Shown: one piece after another, positions 1,965-4,400 of the stretch | Layout: the number at the start of each line of letters is the position of its first letter | Position numbering within the stretch: the stretch's first letter is position 1 | IMG/VR virus record: IMGVR_UViG_3300046558_000145 | Coordinates: 1 to 24,648 of that record | Direction: 5' to 3' (one strand) | DNA: 24,648 nt | Origin: a virus | The notes under the pieces: generated by a model | Databases searched by the model: none | Seen by the model: only the letters and a program-made list of their open reading frames with translations | What the model was told of the DNA's origin: nothing | Made by a program: the position numbers and the translations under genes

Positions 1965-2261
1965 ATGAACATTACACAAGAGCATTTTCAGGAAGTGACA
2001 GGGGAAATTCCTGTGCCGTCGTTCGGGTGTTTTCCTGCTGGCATTACTAACCAGCCTCTTCCTGAAAGTGCTTTGACCATGAATGAATTCACTGTCACCG
2101 GGCCAATAGACGGCTTGTATCACGTTGGCTACCAGTCAGCGATTTCCAATACCTTCTATTCCATCAGCGAGTTCGTCAGCAAGGAGCTCGCGCATGTCAC
2201 GGCTGACCGTATGAATGATGAACGTCGCCGCGCTGAAGCCAGGATCAATGATGGCCGGTGA
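1965..2261 (+). CDS. Small protein of unknown function preceding the replication gene
   Basis: 98 residues from ATG 1965. The frame is open back to ATG 1860, but that stretch overlaps the inverted-repeat control region and encodes an unconvincing, Cys-containing leader, so the shorter form is preferred. Neither start has a good ribosome-binding site, so the start is uncertain; ATG 2079 (MNEFTVTGPIDGLY) is a third option. The middle (TGPIDGLYHVGYQSAISNTF) looks like a small beta fold and the C-terminus is a charged helix (ADRMNDERRRAEARINDGR). Base composition is more AT-rich than the flanking genes. It overlaps the next gene by 11 bases. No family is recognised. Confidence 0.5.
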   Translation: MNITQEHFQEVTGEIPVPSFGCFPAGITNQPLPESALTMNEFTVTGPIDGLYHVGYQSAISNTFYSISEFVSKELAHVTADRMNDERRRAEARINDGR

Positions 2262-3036
2262 ATGGATCAAGTTCGAGGCTAGCACGCCGGAAAAGCCGGA
2301 AGTGTTTGCCATCACCGTGGCGATGGGCTGGGACGACCCCGACTTGGCCGTGGGCAAGCTGCTCAAGGTCTGGCGCTGGTTCGACCAGCAATCCATCAAC
2401 GGTAACGCCCCCAGCGTTACCTTGGCGTTACTCGACCGCATATCCGGCGTTAGCGGTTTCGCGCAAGCGATGTGCAATGTCGGCTGGTTGGCGCAATCGG
2501 AACTGGGATTGAGCCTGCCCAACTTCGACCGCCACAACGGCAAGACCGCCAAGGACCGCGCGCTGACCGCAAAACGGGTGGCAAAACACAAAGGTAACGC
2601 TGATGGTAACGCGAAAGGTAACGCTGCCAGCGTTAGTTTGCCGTTACCTAGAGAAGAGAAGAGAAGAGAAGAAGTAAAAACTCCCCCTATATCCCCCGAT
2701 GGGGGGAAAGTCTCCAAGGCCAAGAGCATTGGTTTCCCTGACTTCCTCAAGCGCTGCAAGGACGATGGCGAAACCCCGATCCCTGACGACCATCCGGTGT
2801 TCGCCTATGCTGCCGAGGCGCAGATTCCGCGCGACTTCCTGGCCCTGCACTGGTTCGAGTTCAAGGACCGTTACGCCGATGGCGTCAAGAAGTACAAGGA
2901 CTGGCGCAAGGTGTTTTCCAATTCGGTGCGCGGCAACTGGTTCCACCTGTGGTACGCGCCCAAGACCGGCGGCGGCTACCAGCTGACCACGGACGGCGTG
3001 CAGGCCCAGAACGTCCACGCGGAGAAACTGAAATGA
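2251..3036 (+). CDS. Phage replication initiator, lambda O-like (contains origin repeats)
   Basis: 261 residues. ATG 2251 is chosen because AGGA (2241-2244) lies 6 bases upstream; in-frame ATGs at 2215, 2218 and 2248 are alternatives. The N-terminus (MAGEWIKFEASTPEKPEVFA) and the NGNAPSVTLALLD...NFDRHNGKTAKDRALTAKRV region match my memory of a replication-protein family in phages of Gram-negatives, with an N-terminal winged-helix DNA-binding domain. Residues about 108-155 are a low-complexity linker (GNADGNAKGNAASVS, EEKRREE). The C-terminal part (KYKDWRKVFSNSVRGNWFHLWYA) is typical of helicase-loading phage initiators. The gene overlaps the DnaB-like helicase as ATGA, as expected for an initiator/helicase pair. 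The linker DNA carries repeated GGTAACGC sites, as in lambda O. Confidence 0.85.
   Translation: MAGEWIKFEASTPEKPEVFAITVAMGWDDPDLAVGKLLKVWRWFDQQSINGNAPSVTLALLDRISGVSGFAQAMCNVGWLAQSELGLSLPNFDRHNGKTAKDRALTAKRVAKHKGNADGNAKGNAASVSLPLPREEKRREEVKTPPISPDGGKVSKAKSIGFPDFLKRCKDDGETPIPDDHPVFAYAAEAQIPRDFLALHWFEFKDRYADGVKKYKDWRKVFSNSVRGNWFHLWYAPKTGGGYQLTTDGVQAQNVHAEKLK
2401..2453 (+). repeat. Origin-repeat cluster 1 (GGTAACGC/GCGTTACC)
   Basis: GGTAACGC (2401-2408) and GCGTTACC (2414-2421) form a perfect 8-bp inverted repeat with a 5-bp centre. Two more inverted-orientation copies follow: GGCGTTAC (2424-2431) and the variant GGCGTTAG (2446-2453). The cluster lies inside the initiator coding sequence. Part of it encodes a motif (GNAPSVT) that may be conserved for protein reasons. 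However, the rare-looking TTA codon in GCG-TTA-CTC fits selection on the DNA repeat. Confidence 0.65.
2593..2648 (+). repeat. Origin-repeat cluster 2 (iterons at 12-bp spacing)
   Basis: Three exact direct copies of GGTAACGC start at 2593, 2605 and 2617, a strict 12-bp period. They are followed by two inverted-orientation variants, GCGTTAG (2630-2636) and CGTTACC (2642-2648). The repeats encode the GNA-x-GNA-x-GNA linker of the initiator protein, a region with little protein constraint. Repetition is therefore more likely selected as DNA, as with the iterons inside lambda O. Confidence 0.8.
2593..2706 (+). other. Predicted phage replication origin inside the initiator gene
   Basis: Iteron cluster 2 is followed directly by a purine-only run on the + strand with GAGAA/GAAGA repeats, leading into GTAAAAA (2651-2680). 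After that come CTCCCCCTATAT and a G/C hairpin, CCCCC (2693-2697) with GGGGG (2701-2705) around a GAT loop. Iterons beside an easily melted stretch inside an O-like gene reproduce the layout of lambdoid origins, where O binds iterons and loads DnaB. This is inferred from arrangement. Confidence 0.7.
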
Positions 3037-4400
3037 CCGACCACGACGACCACAGCGTCTCGATCCGTGCCGAGCAGGCGGTCCTTGGTGCTTTGCTGGC
3101 CGACAACGACGCACTCGACCGCGTTGCCGATCTGGACGGCGCGCACTTCTACCGCCACGACCACCGCCTGATTTTCGAGGAAATCCGCGCCCAGATCGGC
3201 GCCGGCCAGCGGGTCGACGCGATCACCGTGTTCGACGGCCTGAAAGACCGGGTCGAGGACTGCCTGAAGTACCTGGCGATGCTGCGCCAGTCGGCGGTCA
3301 GCGCCATCAACATCGGGCGCCATGCCGAGATCGTGCTCGACAAGGCCGCCAAACGGGCGCTGCTGGCGCTGGCCGACGAAATGCGGGAGCTGGCATCCTC
3401 CGCACAGCCGGCGGCCGTATGCGTCGATCTGGCCGCTTCCAAGCTCGATGCGCTGGCGCAGAACAAGACCGATGCCGAGCCACAGCGAATCGACATCATG
3501 CTGGGCGACTACGCCGATGTGCTGACCCGGCGCATGAGCGGGGCCATGAAGCCGGTGCCGACCGGGTATGCCCATCTGGACGAGCAACTGGATGGGGGGC
3601 TGGAGCGCGGCACGCTGACGGTGATCGCCGGCCGCCCCGGCATGGGCAAGACCGCTGCCGGGCTGGGTATTGCGCGCAACGTTGCCAACGACGGCGCGGC
3701 CCTGTTCTTTTCGATGGAAATGTCGCGCCATCAGGTCAGCGACCGCAACGTGGCCGCCATCGGGCATGTGCCGATCAAGTGGCTGCGCAAGCCGGGCGAG
3801 AGCACGCCGCAGGACAGCGCGCACTGGGACGCGATGACGGCGGCCTTCCACAAGGCGCGCAGCATGAACCTGTTCGTGGACGACAAGACCGGCCTGAACA
3901 TGCTGGAAATCCGCGCCAAGGCGCGCAGCATCAAGCGCAAGCACGGGCTGGACCTGATCGTGGTCGACCAGCTGTCGTTCATCACCGGCGGCAAGTCCGA
4001 CAAGAGCTACGAGGCGGTCGGGGAGCACACCCGCGCCTTGGTGGCGCTGGCCAAGGAACTCGATTGTGCCGTGATCCTGTTGTGCCAGTTGAACCGGAAG
4101 TGCGAGGACCGCCCCAACAAGCGCCCGATCATGGCCGACCTCGCGGTGTCCGGCTCCATCGAACAGGACGCGGCCAACATCATCTTCCTGTACCGCGACG
4201 CCGTGTACCACCCCGAGATCACCGGCCCCGAGCGCGACATATGCGAGTGGCACGCGGTCAAGCAGCGCCAGGGCGAGCCGGGCGTGGTCGGGCTGAAATA
4301 CACTGGCTACCTGACCCGTTTCGATGACCTGCCGTATCGCTGGGCACCACGGCCGCCGGAAGAGCGGCGCAGCAGCGAACGGCGCGGGGGCTTCCAATGA
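3033..4400 (+). CDS. DnaB-family replicative helicase
   Basis: 455 residues, close to the usual DnaB length. ATG 3033 overlaps the initiator stop and has GGAG (3021-3024) upstream; the open frame further upstream is shadow. The N-terminal DnaB domain (about 1-105: SIRAEQAVLGALL, FYRHDHRLIFEEI) is followed by a linker and the RecA-like ATPase core. Walker A is GRPGMGKT at 200-207, Walker B LDLIVVDQ ends at D312, then comes the helicase motif SGSIEQDAANIIFLYRD. These motifs are those of the ring-shaped 5'-3' helicase that unwinds the fork. Encoding its own helicase next to an initiator suggests that the phage recruits this enzyme to its own origin instead of the host DnaB. The C-terminus ends in a basic, Arg-rich tail. 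Confidence 0.95.
   Translation: MTDHDDHSVSIRAEQAVLGALLADNDALDRVADLDGAHFYRHDHRLIFEEIRAQIGAGQRVDAITVFDGLKDRVEDCLKYLAMLRQSAVSAINIGRHAEIVLDKAAKRALLALADEMRELASSAQPAAVCVDLAASKLDALAQNKTDAEPQRIDIMLGDYADVLTRRMSGAMKPVPTGYAHLDEQLDGGLERGTLTVIAGRPGMGKTAAGLGIARNVANDGAALFFSMEMSRHQVSDRNVAAIGHVPIKWLRKPGESTPQDSAHWDAMTAAFHKARSMNLFVDDKTGLNMLEIRAKARSIKRKHGLDLIVVDQLSFITGGKSDKSYEAVGEHTRALVALAKELDCAVILLCQLNRKCEDRPNKRPIMADLAVSGSIEQDAANIIFLYRDAVYHPEITGPERDICEWHAVKQRQGEPGVVGLKYTGYLTRFDDLPYRWAPRPPEERRSSERRGGFQ

Follow-up and report, generated by a model that had tools for sequence, protein, structure and literature searches.

A probable phage replication origin of phased iterons and a purine tract within the gene of its own initiator

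The window, by which we mean the whole 24.6-kb stretch of viral DNA analysed here, carries a gene for a phrog_2509 protein and, directly 3′ of it with a 4-bp overlap, a gene for a DnaB-family replicative helicase (Table 1). The Pfam match of the latter bears out the DnaB-type helicase that an earlier note, made from the sequence alone, had placed next door. The initiator starts with MAG[DE]WIKF, as do its homologues, and the phrog_2509 profile match (residues 1–151) covers the N-terminal domain, taken as residues 1–115. In an AlphaFold2 model this domain is ordered and helical, with a two-strand hairpin at 81–88. It is followed by a disordered linker, of low confidence around residues 110–155, and by an ordered C-terminal domain. 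No family was found for the window protein in Pfam, and a search of solved structures with the family sequence profile gave no match. Foldseek run on the AlphaFold2 model retrieved winged-helix regulators only, with a best E value of 0.15; since these matches are weak, DNA binding by the N-terminal domain is plausible, not demonstrated. Further 5′ in the window, two adjacent small genes (681–1013 and 1017–1334) gave weak MarR-like winged-helix matches and are possibly tandem paralogues.

Table 1. Genes and sequence features at the initiator locus (window coordinates)
Feature	Coordinates	Strand	Details
Initiator gene	2251..3036	+	phrog_2509 replication initiation protein, 261 aa; PHROG match E 1.2e-62
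DnaB-family replicative helicase gene	3033..4400	+	PF03796, E 6.8e-69
Iteron cluster 1	2401..2455		cores 2403(+), 2415(-), 2426(-), 2448(-); spacing 12, 11, 22 bp
Iteron cluster 2	2593..2648		cores 2595(+), 2607(+), 2619(+), 2631(-), 2642(-); spacing 12, 12, 12, 11 bp
GGTAACGC copies, perfect inverted repeat	2401-2408, 2414-2421	+, -	within cluster 1
GGTAACGC copies, direct at 12 bp	2593-2600, 2605-2612, 2617-2624	+, +, +	within cluster 2
(AGAGA)n purine tract CCTAGAGAAGAGAAGAGAAGAGAAG	2647-2671 (purine run to 2674)	+	directly follows last iteron; putative unwinding element
Easiest-melting 40-bp stretch of the gene	2644..2683		nearest-neighbour profile; 0.3rd percentile of window
C5-N5-C5-N3-G6 element	2683..2706		can form C5/G5 hairpin

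Counting both strands, the window has five copies of the octamer GGTAACGC, all of them inside the initiator gene in a stretch of 224 bp (2401–2624). The number expected in the window was 0.56 ± 0.69, and none of 100 shuffles reached five. The full record, which may be a fragment, holds these five copies and no others. The perfect inverted repeat and the three direct copies at 12-bp spacing described in the earlier note are exact. Its two repeat clusters are there as well, but the copies in them were undercounted: nine copies of a 5-bp core, TAACG, are found in 2403–2646, spaced 11, 12 or 22 bp within the two clusters. A 34-nt block, 82% identical, is common to both clusters at a distance of 216 bp. 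Cluster 1 codes for NGNAPSVTLALL..GVS within the N-terminal domain, a segment that comprises the strand at 52–54 and its surroundings in the AlphaFold2 model. Cluster 2 codes for GNADGNAKGNAASVSLPLP and, together with the purine tract, encodes the linker; residues 119–125 and 127–129, in the part encoded by cluster 2, have a pLDDT below 50.

We compared the gene with synonymous-codon shuffles, which preserve both the protein and the codon counts. The window gene contains 10 cores against 2.2 ± 1.3 in the shuffles (0/500 as high), and its commonest octamer occurs five times against a null maximum averaging 2.5 (0/150 as high). Homologues were gathered from viral contigs and genomes, giving a set of 48 non-redundant genes (<85% identical) that was not selected for the purine tract. 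These 48 genes hold 384 cores, compared to 119.7 ± 9.1 in their shuffled versions (148 at most among 500), with a core density of 10.2/kb inside the gene and 0.85/kb in flanking DNA. Enrichment was weak in a few homologues (L066, P 0.13; L070, P 0.30; L063, P 0.10). The core word occurs in either orientation and in more than one reading frame; it is read as xNx (xNA/xNG, GNA) in 164 cases, as xV[TS] (SVT) in 123, as ALP/ALL in 70 and as VT in 21. As one DNA word is read as several peptides, the constraint is on the DNA and not on the peptide.

Codon choice pointed the same way as the excess over the shuffles. Inside the motifs, Gly was encoded by GGT in 96% of cases (20% elsewhere), Val by GTT in 81% (26% elsewhere) and the Ser of SV by AGC in 96% (30% elsewhere). 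The Leu of ALP was TTA in 35/35 cases, compared to 10% elsewhere, and its Pro was CCT in 35/35, compared to 18% elsewhere. At the same linker peptide, where freely changing synonymous codons had been named in the earlier note as an argument against its reading, the codons were near-fixed. The proposal that the repetition is selected as DNA is thus upheld both by the codon shuffles and by the fixed codons of the homologues: iterons and purine tract are selected at the DNA level.

Neighbouring cores are generally separated by 12 bp (forward–reverse, 90; forward–forward, 58) or 11 bp (reverse–reverse, 51), and also by 22 bp (16) and 33 bp (15). Since 11 and 22 bp are not multiples of 3, the peptide switches from SVT to ALP to preserve the DNA phase. 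The order of the cores is nearly always forward then reverse, with 171 such pairs against 20 in the opposite order among 85 genes. The word, first thought to be specific to this phage's initiator, proved to be common to nearly all phrog_2509 relatives of the window's subtype. We also observed that in L036, L042, L075 and L081 extra repeats lengthen the part of the N-terminal domain encoded by cluster 1, so that protein length there seems to track DNA copy number.

Beyond the iterons, the purine run (2650–2674) and the C-run/GAT/G-run after it, both already reported, are present, the latter as C5-GAT-G6 (2693–2706); an A-rich spacer separates the tract from the larger C5-N5-C5-N3-G6 element. 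In an exact scan of viral contigs, at least 119 stretches contained the 25-bp tract letter for letter, compared to one match for a reversed control. That single control match (L217:340–440) carries an array of TTCGAACA-like repeats followed by CTAGAAGAGAAGAG, which suggests that the layout of iterons and purine tract may extend to further words. Among the at least 119 tract matches, 116 give an ORF in which 50 or more codons precede the tract, and the tract peptide in these 116 ORFs is PREEKRREE in 111 and LEKRREEK in 5. (AGAGA)n reads Arg/Glu/Lys in every frame; this frame shift was therefore not used as proof of DNA-level selection and was set aside as an argument on its own, codon choice being the stronger evidence. 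In the 48-gene set, the Arg of PREEK was AGA in 26/26 cases, compared to 15% elsewhere, and the tract Glu codons were GAA in 33/33 and GAG in 32/33. Most of the scanned representatives of the tract-bearing ORFs have their matches in PHROG families annotated as replication initiation or O-like, while tract-bearing L143 matches only PHROG families of unknown function. Those characterised so far look like replication initiators.

Conservation ends sharply on both sides of the tract, and the last core lies at one fixed distance from it in 65 of the 81 tract loci that have a core. GC content is about 0.37 at the tract. The easiest-melting 40 bp of the gene, which overlap the tract in the window, start between −25 and +40 of it in 42/45 homologues, where chance would give 9%. 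From this position we infer that the tract may serve as the unwinding element. Among the sequences compared, it is the most conserved element of all, common to initiators that use different iterons. A search of open-access papers for the tract motif (EEKRREE, or GAGAAGAGAAGAGAAG with phage and replication) found none.

A C5-N(3-5)-C5-N-G5 element lies shortly 3′ of the tract in homologues too, alongside different C-terminal domains. A C5 run paired with a second run of C4 or more was found in 14/40 genes, the window included, and C5 runs are in excess (46, compared to 26.8 ± 4.5 in codon shuffles). The C5-G6 hairpin was rejected as a strong structure, as judged by a single-stranded DNA fold of −6.7 kcal/mol (z −1.4).

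De novo counts against codon shuffles gave other words for other subfamilies, namely GCGGAC (epsilon15-like), CGTAACG/CGTTACG, GAAACGCC, GCGTCACA and CGTCAC. These lie beside the same tract at dominant spacings of 10–13 bp, about one helical turn, to which the CGTAACG class adds steps of 5 and 7 bp. The DNA replication protein of Salmonella phage epsilon15 also belongs to phrog_2509 (E 5e-92), and its gene has the same purine tract and a similar one-turn iteron grid. It differs from the window in its DnaT-like C-terminal domain (PF17948) and in its word: in epsilon15, as in L010, GTCCGC/GCGGAC stand at the positions of the window's GTAACGC/GCGTTAC, up to the same tract. Across the gathered sequences, the same layout is found in more than 100 related phages, with a word that varies by subfamily and a tract that is nearly letter-for-letter constant. 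Eight tract-bearing genes with unlike N-terminal parts (L126, L130, L131, L134, L143, L151, L170 and L195) have essentially none of the tested words, showing that the link between tract and iterons is not universal.

Single-linkage clustering of the tract proteins merged nearly all of them via the charged tail, and classes were instead taken from the N-terminal parts. On a tree of these parts, from which iteron-coding columns had been removed and which has few columns and many unresolved forks, the iteron word changes 9 times, compared to 22.2 for shuffled labels (0/200 as low). As judged by this tree, the iteron word is inherited together with the N-terminal domain. The window and L010 have C-terminal domains that are 70% identical and N-terminal domains that are 39% identical; their iteron words differ, and the DnaB proteins encoded after them have very similar starts. 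The gene 3′ of the initiator varies across the family. By these comparisons, the C-terminal domain and the helicase are inherited separately from the N-terminal domain and the iterons, as one would predict for a protein that reads the iterons with its N-terminal part and recruits the helicase with its C-terminal part. The two YdaU proteins, whose C-terminal parts are related, look like another exchange at the linker: that of E. coli K-12 (L213:5120–5977) has a DUF1376 N-terminal domain and is without a TAACG array, and that of phage Rac (L214:1228–2016) has a phrog_2509 N-terminal domain and TAACG iterons.

Taken together, these results make it highly probable that the phage has its replication origin here, inside the gene that codes for its initiator, and that this origin resembles ori-lambda in its working. 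The N-terminal domain of the 2251–3036 protein would bind the TAACG-core iterons, which form two clusters some 200 bp from each other, with copies spaced by about one helical turn. The row of iterons points at the (AGAGA)n tract, with the last copy abutting it, and the tract and its A-rich spacer are the part that melts most easily. The C-terminal domain would then deliver the DnaB-type helicase, the product of the next gene, to the exposed strand. Iteron binding, unwinding at the tract, helicase loading and a start of replication at this locus are predicted from the sequence. GC skew, an earlier proposal for a check, has no turning point near 2.4 kb and is uninformative at the scale of the window.

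The label ‘lambda-type’, given to this origin at first, holds as an analogy. In the lambda sequence, too, iterons inside the initiator gene lie beside an easily melted purine-rich run, which is followed by an inverted repeat; the asymmetric AT/purine-rich tract beside the iterons has its counterpart at 2647–2683 of the window. The N-terminal part of lambda O reads the iterons and its C-terminal part recruits the helicase, and by analogy the window protein would likewise have a DNA-binding N-terminal and a helicase-recruiting C-terminal half. The label does not hold for the protein or for the grid. BLASTP of the window initiator against lambda O gave no detectable similarity (best E 8.4), and PF04492, which lambda O matches, is absent from the window protein; the two are not detectably related. 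In lambda and Stx phages, the middle of gene O contains four to six iterons together with an AT-rich tract (PMC3349717, PMC7466680). The four iterons of lambda are 18 bp long and stand about 20–24 bp apart in a single block, and its AT-rich tract measures 38 bp, whereas the window has a 5- to 8-bp word every 11–12 bp, a grid of one turn and not of about two, in two clusters of which one lies within the N-terminal domain. The helicase partner also differs, being of the DnaB family in the window and a P-type loader in lambda.

For the tract, iteron plasmids offer a comparison. At RK2 oriV (TrfA) and in F (RepE), initiators bind one strand of a repeated unwinding element, and the exact iteron spacing matters (PMC4081077). 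The likeness lies in the exact distance between the iterons and an unwinding element (putative in the window) that contains repeats, four 13-mers in the case of RK2, and such strand binding offers a sensible model of how the (AGAGA)n tract may work. As for in-gene origins beyond the lambda-like ones, searches of an open-access library turned up no description recognised as a match.

The (AGAGA)n tract might further be a portable origin element of a large and diverse set of phage initiators, that is, a fixed melting or strand-loading sequence with a common recogniser, each subfamily joining to it a helically spaced iteron word of its own. We put this forward tentatively, at somewhat less than even chances. 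If true, origins in uncharacterised phages would be recognisable from sequence alone. Alternatively, the tract could be, instead of an unwinding element, a recombination joint, a brief stretch of common DNA where N-terminal/iteron modules and C-terminal/helicase modules swap between phages. It does separate a conserved N-terminal half from C-terminal halves and downstream genes that are very diverse, and the window and L010 display such an exchange. However, hitchhiking would give a decay of conservation and not the sharp ends seen on both sides of the tract, and the fixed distance to the last iteron and the local melting minimum also argue against a joint. We consider this explanation unlikely, the roles of joint and origin not being mutually exclusive.

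The origin itself has to be weighed against a function of the repeats as operators, through which the initiator or another phage regulator would control transcription of the replication genes, with replication starting elsewhere. Autoregulation by initiators is common in iteron plasmids, and binding-site arrays 5′ of the helicase gene could be a roadblock. But both clusters are inside coding sequence, the array keeps a fixed spacing from a melting-prone tract, and the iteron word and the N-terminal domain of a replication initiator change together, which leaves operators very improbable. We give equally sparing credence, or slightly less, to a role of the tract or the C5-C5-G5 element as RNA, be it mRNA structure, pausing at tandem AGA codons or a primer RNA. 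Tandem AGA codons are indeed present in the tract, which is always sense in the gene, and C5 runs exceed those of the shuffles; yet the sense orientation is forced by coding, the tract adjoins the iterons, and the hairpin is not unusually stable. Finally, an ordinary protein-level repeat, in which the GNA linker, of low complexity, and the charged linker REEKR would be selected as peptides, would suit a linker that is disordered and charged like many others, but is refuted by the codon tests, the near-absolute codon choice, the use of one word in several frames and on both strands and the 11-bp spacings leaving it a negligible probability.

An origin inside the initiator gene is textbook for lambda. 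Such an in-gene origin appears here as a recurrent and modular architecture, in a large family whose sequences show no detectable relationship with lambda O. Its members form a natural series in which the same tract and a similar grid are combined with at least five iteron words that change with the N-terminal domain, while C-terminal domains change with the helicase or loader. This makes testable how the N-terminal part reads iteron specificity, what role the tract plays and whether the halves of the initiator are exchangeable. The locus also shows clearly how the same bases can serve both as coding and as cis-acting DNA, with one DNA word giving four peptides, and the tract may be a search key for origins in metagenomic phages.
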